Shown here one piece after another: positions 2,110-61,622 of a DNA stretch of 64,000 nt; the first letter of the stretch is position 1, and each line of letters starts with the position of its first letter. The position numbers were made by a program, and so were the translations under genes. This DNA comes from Candidatus Poribacteria bacterium (GTDB lineage Bacteria; Poribacteria; WGA-4E; WGA-3G). A model generated the notes under the pieces. It saw nothing but the letters and a program-made list of their open reading frames with translations. It was not told the DNA's origin and did no database searches. The stretch lies in assembly GCA_028820845.1 (NCBI GenBank), contig JAPPII010000015.1:1-64000 (forward strand), given 5' to 3'.

Positions 2110-2206
2110 CCTCACATTCAATATTGAGTTTATAGGTGATCCTGTTTGTAGTAGGGCAATTCATTGCCTGTTTATTACCGAGAGACAAACAACAATATCT
2201 GCTCAA

Positions 2207-8737: not shown

Positions 8738-9135
8738 ATGGCAATCTCAAGTCGCGAGGTCGTAAAAAGATTAAGGAAAGAAAAGTGGATGTTATACCAT
8801 TTCTAAAAGTTTATCTCGCATTAACCGAACCCACTCACGTCACACCCGGTAGGTGCGGTTTCTAACCGCACCGAGCAGTGCTGAAAAATAGCCAACCTTT
8901 TAAGAGGAATTATCAATTAGAATTGGTATTAGTTCATGTTGTTGGGAGTCATCACCACTACAAACACCCTAACAAGCCTGGTAGAGTAACTGTTCCTCAT
9001 CCCAAGAAAGACCTACGGAAACAGACTTTGCTAAGTATTTGTAGACAAGCAGGATGGAATGGTTGGGATCCAAATTGGAGAAAAAGAAAGAAAAGCACAC
9101 GAGGCGTTCTATGTATAGGCATTACCCTATTGTGA
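8738..9135 (+). pseudogene. hicA: hicA toxin gene split by a MITE
   Basis: HicA is a small dsRBD-fold mRNA interferase. Its N-terminus is read from ATG 8738 (MAISSREVVKRLRKEKWML, ending 8794). The remainder begins at 8932 (VHVVGSHHHYKHPNKPG, then RVTVPHPKKDLRK). Removing bases 8795-8931 joins KWML to VHVVGSHHH in frame and gives a normal HicA sequence with the catalytic histidine in GSHHH. As it stands, translation from 8738 stops at TAA inside the insertion. A GTG at 8878 could give an 85-residue protein lacking the proper first helix. The long lysine-rich tail overlaps the hicB start. Confidence 0.8.
8795..8928. mobile_element. 134-bp MITE inserted in hicA
   Basis: The insertion begins TACCATTTCTAA and ends TTAGAATTGGTA, a 12-bp terminal inverted repeat with one mismatch. 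It is flanked by a direct TTA (8792-8794 and 8929-8931), consistent with a 3-bp target duplication of the kind made by some IS5-group elements. It carries no coding capacity. Its middle holds the hairpin GGTGCGGTT/AACCGCACC (8852-8872), which also occurs near 34128, 34174, 34220 and 42066. Confidence 0.75.
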
Positions 9136-26960: not shown

Positions 26961-28247
26961 ATGAGATTGACTTTCAAATACCCTGTGTATCCAACGAAAG
27001 CACAGGAAAACGTATTGCTTCAGTGGTTTGGCCACCTTTGTGAACTTCAGAATTCGGCGCGCAATAATCGTAAGGCTGCCTACGAAGAAGAAGGGCGTTT
27101 TGTATCTCAAGGCGAACAAGAGAAATTTTTGACGGCAGCCCGTCAGAAATATGACGACTTTCGCTCCGTGCCTCAAGATTTCCAAGTTTCTGTCCTCAAG
27201 CGTGTTGAGAAAGCATTTGATGCGTTCCGTAGACGTTGCCAAGAAGGCACTGCGAAAAAAGGGTATCCTCGCTACAAAACGCGTCTCCGTTCTCTGACAT
27301 GGTGCTTGAGAAAGCACAAAGTCAAGGATGAAGCGACAGGTGGATTCAAACGTGTTCGCCAAAATCCAATAATAGAAACCGAGTTTCGTCATAATCGCTT
27401 GAAAGTGCCAAAGTTGGGTGAAGTCAAGATATACATGCACCGTCCTTTTGTCGGGGACCCAAAAGAAGTTACACTTGTCAAGAAAGCAAGCGGTTGGTAT
27501 GCCCATATCTCTTGTGAACTCCCGGATACCCCGAAAATTGAACCGGCGGCTGCGATTGCCGTTGATATGGGAACCACCCACTACCTCACCACTTCTGAGG
27601 GCGAAAAAGAGGATAACCCAAGATGGTATCGCAACGCAGAAGGCTTGCTCCATAAGCACAATCAGACGCTGGCACGCCGAAAGAAAGGCAGTCAGCGTTG
27701 GTATAAAGCCGTTCATGCCGTTGCGCTGCACCATGAGCGCACCACAAACAAACGTAAAGATTTCATTGGGAAACTCGTCTACAAACTGTTTCATCATCAG
27801 AAAAATAACGTTCTCATTTCAGAATCTTTGAGAATCTCAAACATGGTTGAAAACAAACACCTCAGCAAGAGTATTAGTGATGCGTCTTGGGGAACATTCT
27901 TTGACTGGGCTGGAAACATAGCCGAAAGAGACGGTTTCCATTTCCATCAAGTTGACCCCAAAAACACTTCGCAAATCTGCTCGTGTTGCGGTCAGAAATC
28001 GCCAAAGAAACTTTCGCTGGCGATACGCACCTTTGATTGTCAGTTTTGTGGCACGTCTTTAGACCGAGACCACAACGCTGCACTTAATATACTTTTCAGG
28101 GCAGCTGCTGCCCTTCGTGGAGAGCGTTGGGTTACCGACCTCTATGAAGCGAGAAACACCCCCAATAAAGCATTCGGGTTTAAGAACCCCAACCAGTTAT
28201 CGCTGTTTGATGGTTTGACACAAGCCCCCTGCTTTAGCGGGGGGTAG
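26961..28247 (+). CDS. tnpB: TnpB RNA-guided nuclease of IS element B
   Basis: 428 residues. RuvC residues are visible: D in AVDMGTTHYL, E in LISESLRISNM, D in LDRDHNAALNIL. The zinc finger reads CSCCGQKSPKK then FDCQFCGTS. The N-terminal HTH-like helix (YPTKAQENVLLQWFGHLCELQN) is typical. The final residues (APCFSGG) are encoded by the right-end hairpin itself, so the end of the coding region and the predicted omegaRNA overlap completely. No Shine-Dalgarno is obvious before ATG 26961. Confidence 0.9.
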   Translation: MRLTFKYPVYPTKAQENVLLQWFGHLCELQNSARNNRKAAYEEEGRFVSQGEQEKFLTAARQKYDDFRSVPQDFQVSVLKRVEKAFDAFRRRCQEGTAKKGYPRYKTRLRSLTWCLRKHKVKDEATGGFKRVRQNPIIETEFRHNRLKVPKLGEVKIYMHRPFVGDPKEVTLVKKASGWYAHISCELPDTPKIEPAAAIAVDMGTTHYLTTSEGEKEDNPRWYRNAEGLLHKHNQTLARRKKGSQRWYKAVHAVALHHERTTNKRKDFIGKLVYKLFHHQKNNVLISESLRISNMVENKHLSKSISDASWGTFFDWAGNIAERDGFHFHQVDPKNTSQICSCCGQKSPKKLSLAIRTFDCQFCGTSLDRDHNAALNILFRAAAALRGERWVTDLYEARNTPNKAFGFKNPNQLSLFDGLTQAPCFSGG

Positions 28248-28260
28248 TTGACATCAGTCA

Positions 28261-28390
28261 TAGTGTTCTGTCACATCTAAACTGAGAGGCAGTTTGTAGT
28301 AGGGCAATTCATTGCCCGTTCCTGACGTGCGATAAATCGCACTACTACGAACCGGGGTTTCCCTATCATTTGAAGGTTGACAGACTAATA
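28261..28390. mobile_element. 130-bp TA-flanked MITE, copy 1
   Basis: Bounded by TA on both sides, as in Tc1/mariner-IS630 target duplications. The ends share TCTGTCA in inverted orientation. Inside, TTTGTAGTAG pairs with CTACTACGAA and encloses two perfect hairpins, GGGCAAT/ATTGCCC and GTGCGAT/ATCGCAC, giving a predicted three-way junction. A second copy of identical length lies at 35129-35258. It has no coding capacity. It lies eight bases after IS element B. Confidence 0.7.
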
Positions 28391-28401
28391 GTTCAGACTT
28401 T

Positions 28402-34045: not shown

Positions 34046-34114
34046 TTTTTCCCTCTACTAAATATGCGTGCTGTGTTCAGGACTATGGTAGATCTTAGAA
34101 TTATAGGACTTACG

Positions 34115-34248
34115 CATTCCACTGGTAGGTGCGGTTTCTAACCGCACCGGCTACGTAACACATTCCACTGGTAGGTGCGGTTTCTAACCGCACCGGCTAC
34201 GTAACACATTCCACTGGTAGGTGCGGTTTCTAACCGCACCGGCTGCGT
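34115..34248. repeat. Three tandem 46-bp repeats
   Basis: Units starting at 34115, 34161 and 34207 each read CATTCCACTGGTAGGTGCGG and continue through the hairpin GGTGCGGTT/AACCGCACC. The third differs at its end. A reverse half-copy lies at about 34317-34333. The word TATAGGACTTACGCAT (34102-34117), shared with 5400, immediately precedes. The block fills the 294-base gap between rpoN and lptB. An open frame across it is a repeat artefact. Confidence 0.85.
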
Positions 34249-34339
34249 CGGAATGGGTGAATCTCTTTGATTCTGAGTAAGTCCTGAATTAATTGGACAC
34301 GCTGCACTGTCTTGGAAACCGCACCTACCGGGCTTGGGG

Positions 34340-35104: not shown

Positions 35105-35128
35105 GACTTCTAATTTACGATTCCTCAC

Positions 35129-35258
35129 TATTAGTCTGTCACATCTAAACTAACAGGTGGTTCGTAGTAGGGCAATTCATTGCCCGTTTCTGACGTGCGA
35201 TAAATCGCACTACTACGAACTGGGGTTTCACCATCATTTGAAAGTTGACAGAACACTA
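35129..35258. mobile_element. 130-bp TA-flanked MITE, copy 2
   Basis: Same length and internal sequence orientation as copy 1 at 28261, with TA at both ends and a perfect TTCGTAGTAG/CTACTACGAA outer stem around two hairpins. The tips are exchanged: the left tip TTAGTCTGTCA equals the reverse complement of the right tip of copy 1, and the right tip equals that of the left tip of copy 1. It lies between lptA and lptB. Confidence 0.72.
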
Positions 35259-35274
35259 CGATTGACATCCTTGG

Positions 35275-41861: not shown

Positions 41862-42086
41862 CAACTTTGAGTTTGAGGGCAAGTTCGTAGTAGTGCGATT
41901 TATCGCACGTCCATTAGCGTAACTCAAGTTGCTACCTACAAGACTTTCAGACATGCAGACCTTGTCTTTCACTCAAACGGCTCGGATTGTTTTACACTTT
42001 GTAGCGCAAACTGTATGAAGATTAATTATTTAAATCGGTAATTCCAATTTTCCACAAACTCAGTAGGTGCGGTTTGTAACCGCACC
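41862..42086. repeat. Hairpin repeats in the 41829-42212 gap
   Basis: CAACTTTGAGTT (41862-41873) pairs imperfectly with AACTCAAGTTG (41921-41931) around GTGCGAT/ATCGCAC (41893-41908), the same hairpin as in the MITEs but in reverse orientation. A GGTGCGGTT/AACCGCACC hairpin with a TGT loop lies at 42066-42086. No gene is seen in this 384-base gap. Confidence 0.65.
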
Positions 42087-42212
42087 GGACATTACCGAAA
42101 TATTTTCTAAAACTTCATTTAGTTTGCGGACTTATCGGCACAATCTAACACATTATGCTACAAGCGTGGAACTTTAGGGTAGAAGACTATACCAAAAATC
42201 GGAGGGATTGAA

Positions 42213-50097: not shown

Positions 50098-50156
50098 CAC
50101 ACTTGAGATTTATAGTAAAACCAAAAAATAAAGAGACACTCTCCGCTCCCCTGGTA

Positions 50157-50213
50157 GGCGAGGTTTCTAACCTCGCCTCTTCTCCCCTGGTAGGCGAGGT
50201 TTCTAACCTCGCC
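50157..50213. repeat. Tandem GGCGAGGTT/AACCTCGCC hairpins
   Basis: Two copies of GGCGAGGTT-TCT-AACCTCGCC (50157-50177 and 50193-50213) in near-identical flanks (CCCCTGGTAG before each). Compared with the GGTGCGGTT hairpins elsewhere, the stem sequence is changed on both arms while pairing and loop are kept. The 50098-50323 gap holds nothing else recognisable. Confidence 0.8.
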
Positions 50214-50323
50214 GGTGCAGAGTGTCTAATTAATTCTAAACATTACTATAAATAGAAGTAGTGTAACGGTAGGAAAATTATTTTTTTCTACATATCCAAC
50301 CAAATATGGAGGTCAGTTAGACA

Positions 50324-52034: not shown

Positions 52035-52057
52035 TTTCCCCTCATCTGTTTGTAGTC

Positions 52058-52073
52058 GGGCGATTCATCGCCC
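52058..52073. repeat. GGGCGAT/ATCGCCC hairpin
   Basis: GGGCGAT-TC-ATCGCCC in the context TTTGTAGTC...GTAGTA, a single-hairpin variant of the MITE core with both stem arms changed together. No other feature is seen in 52035-52254. Confidence 0.6.
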
Positions 52074-52254
52074 GTAGTATATCTATATTATCAACAACCT
52101 GTACTTTTTGCAAATGCAAAATAGTGTTTGCTTATGAACACAATTTTTGTTAAAATTAAATTGTCTAAATCATTCCCTCTTAATGCGGAAAACGTAACGG
52201 CAACTTGCAACTCCGTCTGTCCCACTAAACACCCCTATGAAACGGAGGTAACCC

Positions 52255-58886: not shown

Positions 58887-59492
58887 ATGGCATACAGCAA
58901 TTTTACATTAGAATCAGTTCGGAAGACATTTCAACTGGAAACTGATGAAGCCGCAGATATTTCTTCAAAAATAGAGCCTGTGACACCCAGTGAGTACCTC
59001 ACCACCACCTTGGCACGCAACGTGCCCTTAGCACTTGCTATCGGCACAGAAAAGGCAAAGTCAGAAATGATCGTCACCAATGTACTACTCGAACTCCGCG
59101 AGCATTTCACGCAGCGGATTAGTCTCTTTTCAGGCATTGACTTCAGCGTTGATGCGGAAAAGGGTTTGACAGGGGTCTGTGATTTCTTGATAAGTCTTTC
59201 ACCTACGCAATTTCATTTAGAGGCCCCTATTATCGTCCTCGTTGAGGCAAAGAGAGACGAACCGACGACTGGTTTCGGTCAATGTGTTGCAGAGATGCTT
59301 GCAGCGCAACATTTCAATGCTGAAAGAGGAAATGACCTTCCCTGTATTTATGGAACTGCCACTACGGGCACAATGTGGCACTTTCTCAAATTGGAAGCAC
59401 AGCAGCTCCAGATTGATAGCGCAGTCTATTCCATTGGACAGTGTGATAAGATTCTCGGGATCCTCGCAAGTATGGTAGAGCAGAACGCGTAA
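58887..59492 (+). CDS. PD-(D/E)XK-like paralogue 1 of 4
   Basis: 201 residues, first of four tandem paralogues. The shared core reads TEKAKSEMIV (helix with Glu, about 54-63), FSGIDFSVD, GLTGVCDFLIS (Asp99), PIIVLVEAKRDE (Glu120 and Lys122), GFGQCVAEMLAAQHFN, GTMWHFLKLE and CDKILGILASMVEQNA. The D-x20-E-x-K spacing fits the PD-(D/E)XK nuclease fold. Similar stand-alone proteins are, as I recall, numerous in cyanobacteria and uncharacterised. There is no signal peptide. AAAGGAGG precedes the ATG. Nuclease activity is inference. Confidence 0.75.
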   Translation: MAYSNFTLESVRKTFQLETDEAADISSKIEPVTPSEYLTTTLARNVPLALAIGTEKAKSEMIVTNVLLELREHFTQRISLFSGIDFSVDAEKGLTGVCDFLISLSPTQFHLEAPIIVLVEAKRDEPTTGFGQCVAEMLAAQHFNAERGNDLPCIYGTATTGTMWHFLKLEAQQLQIDSAVYSIGQCDKILGILASMVEQNA

Positions 59493-59512
59493 GAAGTATG
59501 GAGGTTTTAGAA

Positions 59513-60118
59513 ATGGCGTATAGCAATTGGACCTTAGAAGAAGTGCTAACAACGTTTCAATTGGAAGCGACTGAATCTATAGACATCTTTGCAAACATAG
59601 AACCCATAGAACCCAGTGCCGAACTCATGGTAGAGTTAAAAAAAAAGGTACCGGTAGCCGCAGCTGTAAATACAGAGAAAGCACGGTCAGAACTGATTGT
59701 CGCCAATATTCTCATTGAACTCCGTGAGAAATTCGAGCGTCGCATCAGCCTCTTTTCTGGCATCGATTTTAATGTTGATGCTGAAAATGGATTGACGGGG
59801 GTCTGCGACTTCTTAATCAGTTTATCGCCGATGCAATCTTTTTTACGGGCACCCGTTATTGTCCTTGTTGAGGCAAAGAAAGAAGACCCAGCACCTGGGT
59901 TAGGGCAGTGTGTTGCTGAGATGATCGCAGCACAACGTTTTAACGCTGAGAAAGGGAATGACCTTTCCCATGTTTATGGTGCCGCCACAACAGGGACAGA
60001 GTGGAAATTTCTCAAATTAAAAGGCAACCGTCTGTCTATTGATATAACAGTCTACCAAATCGCGCAGTGCGACAAAATCCTCGGTATCCTCGCAAGTATG
60101 GTAGAGCAGAACGCGTAA
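59513..60118 (+). CDS. PD-(D/E)XK-like paralogue 2 of 4
   Basis: 201 residues from ATG 59513 (GGAGG upstream; the frame opens at 59498). It follows paralogue 1 after 20 bases. The catalytic-type residues are kept (GVCDFLIS, IVLVEAKKED), as is the C-terminal CDKILGILASMVEQNA, which is identical to paralogue 1 at the protein level. It differs most in residues 15-45 (ATESIDIFANIEPIEPSAEL) and in the QSFLRAP strand entrance. Confidence 0.75.
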   Translation: MAYSNWTLEEVLTTFQLEATESIDIFANIEPIEPSAELMVELKKKVPVAAAVNTEKARSELIVANILIELREKFERRISLFSGIDFNVDAENGLTGVCDFLISLSPMQSFLRAPVIVLVEAKKEDPAPGLGQCVAEMIAAQRFNAEKGNDLSHVYGAATTGTEWKFLKLKGNRLSIDITVYQIAQCDKILGILASMVEQNA

Positions 60119-60140
60119 GAAAGTGTGGAGGTTCTAACAA

Positions 60141-60746
60141 ATGGCTTACAGCAATTTTACATTAGAGACAGTGCGAAAAGAATTTCAGTTAGAAACAACT
60201 CAGGCCATAGGTATCTTTTCCAAGATAGAACCAATAAGTCCGAGTGAACTTCTCACAACAGTCTTGGCAAAAAAGGTACCAGTAGCCGCCGCAATAGGCA
60301 CAGAAAAAGCACGATCAGAACTGATTGTCGCCGATGTCTTGTTTGAACTCCTTGAGCGTTTTAGGGAACATATCAGTCTCTTTTCCGGTATTGAATTCAA
60401 TGTTGATACCGAAGCAGGGTTGACCGGTGTATGTGATTTCCTAATCAGTAGATCGCCAGACCAGCTGTCTTTAGAGGCACCTGTCATTATCCTTGTTGAA
60501 GCAAAGAAGGAAGACTTGACAGCAGGCCTCGGGCAGTGCATTGCTGAAATGATCGCCGCACAACGCTTTAATGCTGAAAAAGGAAATGATATACCTTGTG
60601 TTTATGGCGCCACCACTTCGGGAACAGATTGGCGATTTCTCAAATTGGAAGGACAGAAACTGCACATTGATATAACAGTCTACCAAATCGCGCAGTGCGA
60701 CAAAATCCTCGGCATCCTCGCAAGTATGGTGGAACAAAAAGCGTAA
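60141..60746 (+). CDS. PD-(D/E)XK-like paralogue 3 of 4
   Basis: 201 residues, 22 bases after paralogue 2, with GGAGG upstream. It keeps GVCDFLIS, IILVEAKKEDL, GLGQCIAEMIAAQRFNAEKGN and DITVYQIAQCDKIL, the last shared exactly with paralogue 2. This suggests a later duplication or gene conversion between 2 and 3. The N-terminal variable block is TTQAIGIFSKIEPISPSELL. Confidence 0.75.
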   Translation: MAYSNFTLETVRKEFQLETTQAIGIFSKIEPISPSELLTTVLAKKVPVAAAIGTEKARSELIVADVLFELLERFREHISLFSGIEFNVDTEAGLTGVCDFLISRSPDQLSLEAPVIILVEAKKEDLTAGLGQCIAEMIAAQRFNAEKGNDIPCVYGATTSGTDWRFLKLEGQKLHIDITVYQIAQCDKILGILASMVEQKA

Positions 60747-60767
60747 CGAAGGATAGGAAGTGTCTCA

Positions 60768-61376
60768 ATGGCATATAGCAACTTTACCTTAAGCGAAGTA
60801 AAGAAGGCGTTTCAGATAGTAGAAACAGTTGAATCGGTAAACCTCTTTGCCCACGTAGAGCCAAAAACGCCAAGTTCGGTACTCACAGCCGTATTGGAAC
60901 GAAATATGCAGGTAGCTCTCGCCGTCAACACGGAAAAGGCGAAATCCGAACTGATTATCGCTAATGTACTCATAGAACTTCGCGAGCAATTTGATAGACA
61001 GATCGGCGTTTTTTCCGGGATTGACTTTAACGTTGATGCCGAAAACGGATTGACAGGGGTCTGCGATTTTTTAATAAGTTTGTCTCCGGCACGGTTCGTT
61101 TTAGAGACACCTATCATCATTCTTGTTGAGGCAAAGAAGGATGACCTGACAGTAGGACTCGGTCAGTGCGTTGCCGAGATGATCGCCGCACAACGCTTTA
61201 ACAAGGAAAATGGAAATGATATACCTTGCATCTACGGGGCGACCACTTCTGGAACAGAATGGCTCTTTCTCAAATTGGAAAGGCAAACTCTTTATATTGA
61301 TACCGAATTCTACTCAATTCACGAGTGCGACAAAATCCTCGGCATCCTCGCAAGTATGGTAGAGCAGAAGGCATAG
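60768..61376 (+). CDS. PD-(D/E)XK-like paralogue 4 of 4
   Basis: 202 residues, 21 bases after paralogue 3, with AGGAAG as a weaker Shine-Dalgarno. The core is kept (FSGIDFNVDAENGLTGVCDF, IIILVEAKKDDL). The variable block is VETVESVNLFAHVEPKTPSS and the tail is DTEFYSIHECDKILGILASM. Last of the array; about 40 bases separate it from the pyr promoter. Confidence 0.75.
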   Translation: MAYSNFTLSEVKKAFQIVETVESVNLFAHVEPKTPSSVLTAVLERNMQVALAVNTEKAKSELIIANVLIELREQFDRQIGVFSGIDFNVDAENGLTGVCDFLISLSPARFVLETPIIILVEAKKDDLTVGLGQCVAEMIAAQRFNKENGNDIPCIYGATTSGTEWLFLKLERQTLYIDTEFYSIHECDKILGILASMVEQKA

Positions 61377-61466: not shown

Positions 61467-61516
61467 TATCAAGGAACCCTTTTTAATCCAATCCAGAGAG
61501 GTTGAAAAAAGGATGC
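61467..61516 (+). promoter_or_regulatory. PyrR-binding anti-antiterminator hairpin
   Basis: ATCCAGAGAGGTT (61491-61503) matches the conserved PyrR-binding loop consensus ARUCCNGNGAGGYU known from Bacillus-type pyr attenuators. Flanking CCTTTTTAATCC and GGTTGAAAAAAGG can pair with a bulge, the expected shape of the binding hairpin. Together with the downstream terminator and pyrR this indicates UMP-dependent attenuation. PyrR binding itself is inferred from the family. Confidence 0.8.
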
Positions 61517-61566
61517 ATGATTATATTTTGAATCGAAATTGTAAATCGGAATCGACTGGGATGTTG

Positions 61567-61600
61567 CCTTTCTCGTCACATTAGACGGGAGAGGTTTTTT
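61567..61600 (+). terminator. Attenuator terminator of the pyr leader
   Basis: CCTTTCTCGTC (61567-61577) pairs along its whole length, with two G-U pairs, with GACGGGAGAGG (61584-61594) and is followed by TTTTTT. It lies 47 bases before pyrR and is the likely attenuation terminator. Confidence 0.85.
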
Positions 61601-61622
61601 ATTTGTTAAAATAACGCTATAA

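Follow-up and report, generated by a model that had tools for sequence, protein, structure and literature searches.

MITEs with probable IS630-family ends, a REPIN core and exchanged three-base tips in a Poribacteria genome

MITEs usually retain the ends of an element and lose its middle. The closest described relatives of the repeat studied here are elements of the IS630/Tc1/mariner group (ISY100, IS630) together with the IS630-type MITEs. TA duplications have been described for IS630 elements (PMC2170065), and a preference for CTAG is given in the title of a paper cited there. The elements reported here resemble this group in their DDE_3 transposase with an N-terminal HTH and a match to the IS630 profile, and also in their terminal inverted repeats, the TA in the target, the CTAG preference and the frameshifted transposase; they differ in that 4 bp (NTAN) and not TA are duplicated, that the 3-bp tips are exchangeable and that a REPIN lies inside.

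REPINs and RAYTs are also already known (PMC3116915, PMC3733652). As these sources describe them, they share with our elements an inverted pair of GTAG-tagged hairpins and a cognate RAYT flanked by the same hairpins, whereas most full copies here lie inside the arms of a DDE-type MITE with target duplications. The GTAG-15 dimers of Anabaena variabilis (PMC3733652) are likewise REP dimers in a longer palindrome with a TATA-like start and end, but the palindrome sequence is another one, and the section on these dimers names no partner transposase. MITEPsy1 (PMC3189936) is a 100-nt bacterial MITE that was shown to transpose and has a 4-nt duplication, CTAG or YTAA; it differs in its ISPsy2-like ends (IS5 family), and the passages on it mention no REPIN core. 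Our literature search, carried out mostly at record level, found no account of an IS630-REPIN element in Poribacteria. The element described below combines two known kinds of mobile DNA in one chimera, with some unusual details, and is no new system; what is new is the combination of IS630 ends and a 4-bp duplication around a REPIN.

The window, which is the whole stretch of 64,000 nucleotides that was analysed, had been described as containing a pair of 130-bp repeats of equal length and the same internal orientation. Both copies are real, with bodies at 28267-28384 and 35135-35252 that are 118 nt each, 92% identical (E about 1e-44) and equally oriented, but the element proper measures about 124 bp. 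Copy 1 (28264-28387, plus strand, 124 bp) belongs to the GAG subfamily and has the tips TGT on the left and TAG on the right, read inward; it lies between two target duplications ATAG at 28260-28263 and 28388-28391. Copy 2 (35132-35255, plus strand, 124 bp) belongs to the AAC/GAC subfamily and has TAG on the left and TGT on the right. The REPIN core occupies 28292-28352 of copy 1, plus strand, with one REP half at 28292-28319 (GGGCAATTCATTGCCC hairpin) and the inverted REP half at 28325-28352 (GTGCGATAAATCGCAC hairpin), and 35160-35220 of copy 2, also on the plus strand. The left tip of one copy had been reported to be the inverse of the right tip of the other, and this is exact over the 13 outer bases in both directions: the left end of copy 1, TAGTGTTCTGTCA, is the reverse complement of the right end of copy 2, TGACAGAACACTA, and the right end of copy 1, TGACAGACTAATA, is that of the left end of copy 2, TATTAGTCTGTCA. 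The exchanged part proper comprises 3 bp.

Copy 1 has a TnpB gene and a thioesterase gene as neighbors; the TnpB-like protein (OrfB_IS605, Cas12f1-like TNB) is encoded at 26961-28247 and ends 17 bp before the copy. The neighbors of copy 2 are LptA/LptC-like and ABC-transporter genes on one strand, and from its position among these same-strand genes copy 2 is probably transcribed. Elsewhere in the window, four tandem gene copies of about 201-206 codons, 626-630 bp apart and 65-83% alike in DNA, lie at 58887-61376, and a PyrR binding site (Rfam, 58.6 bits; gathering score 54) lies at 61475-61602.

We examined the fold of the two copies. A 10-bp outer stem, perfect in copy 2 (GTTCGTAGTA/TACTACGAAC) and with one G-T in copy 1, encloses two perfect hairpins in both. 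Against dinucleotide shuffles, the RNA folds reached z -3.7 in copy 1 and -5.2 in copy 2, and the minus strand of copy 2 folded as DNA reached -5.7; no shuffle was as good as the real fold in any of the three tests (0 of 200 each). The predicted three-way junction or cruciform is thus there as a fold, but its core is a REPIN with a transposase family of its own. Folding of this strength (z -3.7 to -5.7), a core conserved at about 97% against about 58% in the arms, and the place of copy 2 between same-strand genes could also point to a structured RNA or regulatory element that is kept mainly for the host, with mobility secondary. We consider this improbable, because the insertions are scattered and have target duplications, the window copies have no Rfam match at gathering score, and the same hairpins flank a RAYT.

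The collection of all genomic copies had been proposed as a check. With copy 1 as the query, the source genome (5.69 Mb, 125 contigs) yielded 72 matches, 25 of them near-full and the rest mainly the 61-bp core, and tips, arms and core were compared in the 25. All 38 genomes of the genus have a match to copy 1, many of them to the core only. The 17-base arm sequence was matched by 33 stretches in named genomes, 18 of which are in Poribacteria; the other 15, in unrelated bacteria, look like chance matches of a short pattern. Once aligned, all 25 source-genome copies have arms and core in one orientation, with the constant arm TCTGTCACATCTAAACT on the GGGCAATTCATTGCCC side and TTTGAARGTTGACAGA on the opposite side. 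Point or small changes from the arm consensus are found in L008, L009, L017, L019, L024 and L025, and L012-L016 are five identical copies at different sites. A second genome, G009, is listed as the same species and provided orthologues; the tabulation of flanks and orthologues missed L017 and L025, in which the right arm has diverged, and merged L009 with L008. One locus of the second genome (L138) has the left flank of L003 and the right flank of L008, and may be a rearrangement between MITE copies or a misassembly. MITEs also occur head to tail with one common 4-mer (L023/L007 and L005), including three in a row in the sister genome G035 (L224).

Going outward from the arms, the 3-base tip is followed by a TA-centered 4-mer that is equal on both sides, and ATAG, CTAG, TTAG, GTAG, CTAC, CTAA and CTAT were met at the source-genome copies. 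The preliminary description had both window copies bounded by TA; TA is found at all four boundaries, but as the center of a 4-bp NTAN duplication. In a search by arms only, blind to the flanks, 21 of 22 source-genome copies had equal 4-mers, with agreement at the first N in 22/22 and at the last N in 21/22; when the right flanks were shuffled among copies, a mean of 4.0 equal pairs and a maximum of 12 were obtained in 10,000 trials. The sole unequal pair among the 22 is that of window copy 2 (CTAT at 35128-35131, CTAC at 35256-35259), and because its orthologue in the second genome (L152) has the same mismatch, this mismatch is old. A count by eye in the 25 near-full copies gave 23 equal pairs, L020 and L025 being unequal.

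An ordinary 2-bp TA duplication, with the outer N positions equal by chance or target preference, would follow the rule of the IS630 family, and CTAG is a known preferred target (PMC2170065, where the title of a cited paper names it). Yet at non-CTAG sites 14 of 15 pairs agree at both N positions, and under a TA duplication one N per side would be the element's own and hence constant. Such a duplication is very unlikely here. What is duplicated at the target is NTAN, four bp centered on TA, and not the 2-bp TA of IS630-family MITEs; the element is therefore filed as a variant of an IS630-family MITE. No exact empty site was found when the joined flanks of 30 copies from the source genome and its species were compared with 295 loci, self and tandem-neighbor matches being set aside. 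One locus, in G005 (L193), spans the junction without an element; it is 75% identical to the L004 locus, and divergence at its junction is too great for the duplication to be proved from it.

The preliminary description had further called for an IS630/mariner transposase with the same terminal inverted repeats. Autonomous elements with the same kind of ends were found in sister species, but no transposase with matching ends was found in the source genome. No matching IS630 was present in either the source or the second genome of the species, both of which are incomplete; 20 of the 38 genomes have relatives. The three DDE_3/IS630 matches of the source genome were ruled out by their other ends, TATTATAGTAAAGCCC, and its five DDE_5/IS701 and 14 DDE_Tnp_1 matches had no matching ends in the flanks examined. 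The 4-bp duplication had suggested an IS701 or IS5 partner, but no matching ends were found for one in these flanks.

In G035, a single-contig sister genome, the MITEs that share the core differ in their arms (TAGTGCTTCAATGTTGAG...), and two ends of this kind lie 1.24 kb apart with two overlapping ORFs between them. These ORFs matched DDE_3 (84.5 bits) and HTH_32 (63 bits) in Pfam, and the IS630 profile of NCBIfam, NF033545 (cut-off 100), was reached by the C-terminal ORF with 129 bits, the N-terminal ORF scoring 73 bits, below the cut-off. IS630-type elements of the sister species are found at L251 (680-1920), L267-L276, L287 and L288. A run of eight A lies where the frames overlap in 12 of 12 IS630-type copies, the pattern expected under frameshifting, a known feature of IS630 (PMC5009743). 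Equal NTAN flanks, all CTAG, were present at the IS ends of 14 of 18 loci, in an end search that required equal flanks and in which the L266 pair takes in a neighboring MITE and L267 and L286 look alike. Pairing distant end patterns with other end types gave no autonomous element; such elements were found with G035-type ends only. The IS end of G016, TAGTCTGTCACCTCTAAACTGAAG, is like the left arm of the source-genome copies at 21 of 24 positions, compared with a mean of 9.3 and a maximum of 16 for shuffled arms over all IS ends. The right IS end of G035 likewise agrees with the left ends of the G035 MITEs at 21 of 24 positions, but shares just 8 and 12 with the ends of window copy 1. These end matches in G016 and G035 indicate that the MITE arms follow the local IS630.

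We compared the tips, read inward, in the 25 near-full copies. TGT/TAG was found in 8, TAG/TGT in 12 (one of these with the left tip mutated to GAG), TGT/TGT in 3 and TAG/TAG in 2. The left tip is TGT in 8 of 9 copies of the GAG subfamily and in 1 of 13 of the GAC subfamily (Fisher P 2e-4), and the right tip is TGT in 2 of 9 and 12 of 13, respectively (P 1.5e-3). The tips thus track two subfamilies; the window pair are members of these two subfamilies with opposite mixed tips. Between the source genome and the second genome of the species, tips were kept in 7 of 7 orthologous pairs, one of which (L003) was matched by the left flank only. The autonomous copies have both tips alike in 11 of 12 cases, and the twelfth is a base short at one end.

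The exchanged tips had been explained by supposing that the core, or the element as a whole, was inverted, with later conversion. A flip by a recombinase or via the inverted ends would leave tips exchanged exactly as they are in the window pair. However, inversion would move the arms too, and the arms are constant, so the tips do not come from inversion. An invertible segment is found in both orientations between its inverted repeats, and here arms and core keep one relative orientation in 25/25 copies; TGT/TGT and TAG/TAG copies exist, giving all four combinations; and tips are equal in every orthologous pair. Inversion as the main cause is already refuted by the constant arms, and we give it almost no credence.

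The conversion part of that explanation survives in a local form. L011 has the same 117-bp body as L012-L016 and carries the right tip TAG instead of TGT, a change of two substitutions and nothing else. From this comparison, the change in L011 is best read as a tip that was replaced as a block, for example copied from the other end, and local tip replacement fits the exchanged tips best. Ordinary point mutation between TGT and TAG, with the tips as freely mutable bases and no block replacement, would agree with the variation of the triplet genus-wide, where TAG, TGT, TGG, TGC, TAT, TAC and TAA occur at pattern matches. We think it unlikely, though clearly less so than inversion, since 49 of 50 tips in the species are TGT or TAG, which are two positions apart, with the intermediates TAT and TGG absent; since L011 is altered at both positions and nowhere else in 117 bp; and since the tips of the autonomous copies are so regularly alike. 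For block replacement, we infer both time and route: it would probably take place around transposition, for example by copying from the other end. An equalized tip alone is no proof of such copying because there are only two main tip states. Cleavage at the 5' ends of ISY100 takes place two bases within the element (PMC2170065); a cut of this kind would leave the outermost bases single-stranded during transposition, to be rebuilt afterwards. By analogy, cleavage similar to that of ISY100 would make just the tip region replaceable.

Each half of the core is a GTAG-tagged hairpin, with GTAGTA and the hairpin on both halves, so that the core is an inverted REP pair with an unpaired GTAG foot. The source genome has a RAYT gene of 200 aa (L037 1273-1875, minus strand), which scored 90 bits with NF047646 (cut-off 80) and 24.1 with Pfam Y1_Tnp (cut-off 23) and had TnpA-REP (4er8) as its single PDB match. 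The same REPs flank this RAYT, GGGC-type ones at the 3' side and four of the GTGC type at the 5' side, arranged and oriented as in the core. The core is therefore a RAYT unit without the gene, a REPIN, and may have been moved by the RAYT in the past. Outside MITE arms, the REPs are present singly and, in contig C92, as 75-bp tandem repeats.

Tandem REPIN arrays without MITE arms lie within a few kb of the RAYT at L211 (C92 103900-109200 of the source genome) and L037, with parts masked as N. Further REPs lie in the window: two halves back to back at 2078-2172 (2078-2105 and 2144-2172, plus strand) with remnants of sister-type MITE arms between them, a single half of the GTGCGATAAATCGCAC type at 41883-41911 (minus strand) and a single diverged half (GGGCGATTCATCGCCC) at 52048-52075 (plus strand). 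A second GTAG-type REP family (GTAGGTGCGGTTTCTAACCGCACC and relatives) is present at 8836-8881, 34112-34249, 42050-42095 and 50141-50222, partly as 46-bp tandem copies, and has its own RAYT (L036) on contig C30 of the same genome.

Core and arms were then compared in 47 elements, all selected for equal NTAN flanks, so that the set says nothing on how frequent equal flanks are. Against window copy 1, ten G035 elements are 57-62% identical in the arms and 97-98% in the core; in other elements the core value is reduced by longer linkers or deletions, and drops to 69% in L262. In L204 and L234 the arm that in other copies adjoins the GTGC type stands next to a lone REP of the GGGC type, and a different REP is present in L077. 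Among 46 elements, none convincingly lacked any REP: L236 looks like chance, L077 is the one with the other REP, and L100 has a diverged core. Judged by these sequences, the pattern suggests that REPs and IS630 ends were joined repeatedly or that the core is strongly kept up.

Taken together, we observed the copies with their duplications of 4 bp, sister-species autonomous elements whose ends match, a REP-flanked RAYT and a tip-only change, and we hold it to be highly probable that the window pair are non-autonomous IS630-family MITEs with a REPIN core, presumably moved in trans, with a 4-bp NTAN duplication and replaceable tips. Points against this assignment are that neither genome of the species yielded such an IS630, that no exact empty site was found and that duplicating 4 bp breaks with the family's TA rule. 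In the mechanism we propose, an IS630-type transposase would act in trans by recognizing the terminal inverted repeats of about 20 bp, excise the element and insert it at NTAN, best at CTAG, with duplication of the 4 bp. The core would consist of the left and right REP hairpins of the RAYT unit minus its gene. The three outermost bases (T-purine-N) would fall beyond the conserved stretch of the repeat and be replaceable as a block, and such replacement would yield TGT/TAG, TAG/TGT, TGT/TGT and TAG/TAG copies without inversion. More tentatively, and with the odds against it, the element may be doubly mobile and modular, combining local IS630 ends with one REPIN (core about 97% and arms about 58% identical across species), the core being moved or homogenized by the RAYT (single-strand HUH) and the whole by the IS630 (double-strand DDE), in a branch of IS630 that makes 4-bp NTAN duplications and exchanges the three terminal bases between its ends.

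In these elements it is the middle that is best conserved. It is itself a second mobile element, and its transposase family is represented in this genome; the ends, in contrast, take after the local IS630. Such elements are a natural setting in which to ask whether a DDE transposon can carry and preserve a REPIN, and by what route REPINs reach new genomes. That an IS630-type element duplicates 4 bp is a modest exception to the TA rule, and one that can be checked. In genome annotation, the repeat accounts for many of the hairpins found between genes in this little-studied phylum of sponge symbionts.
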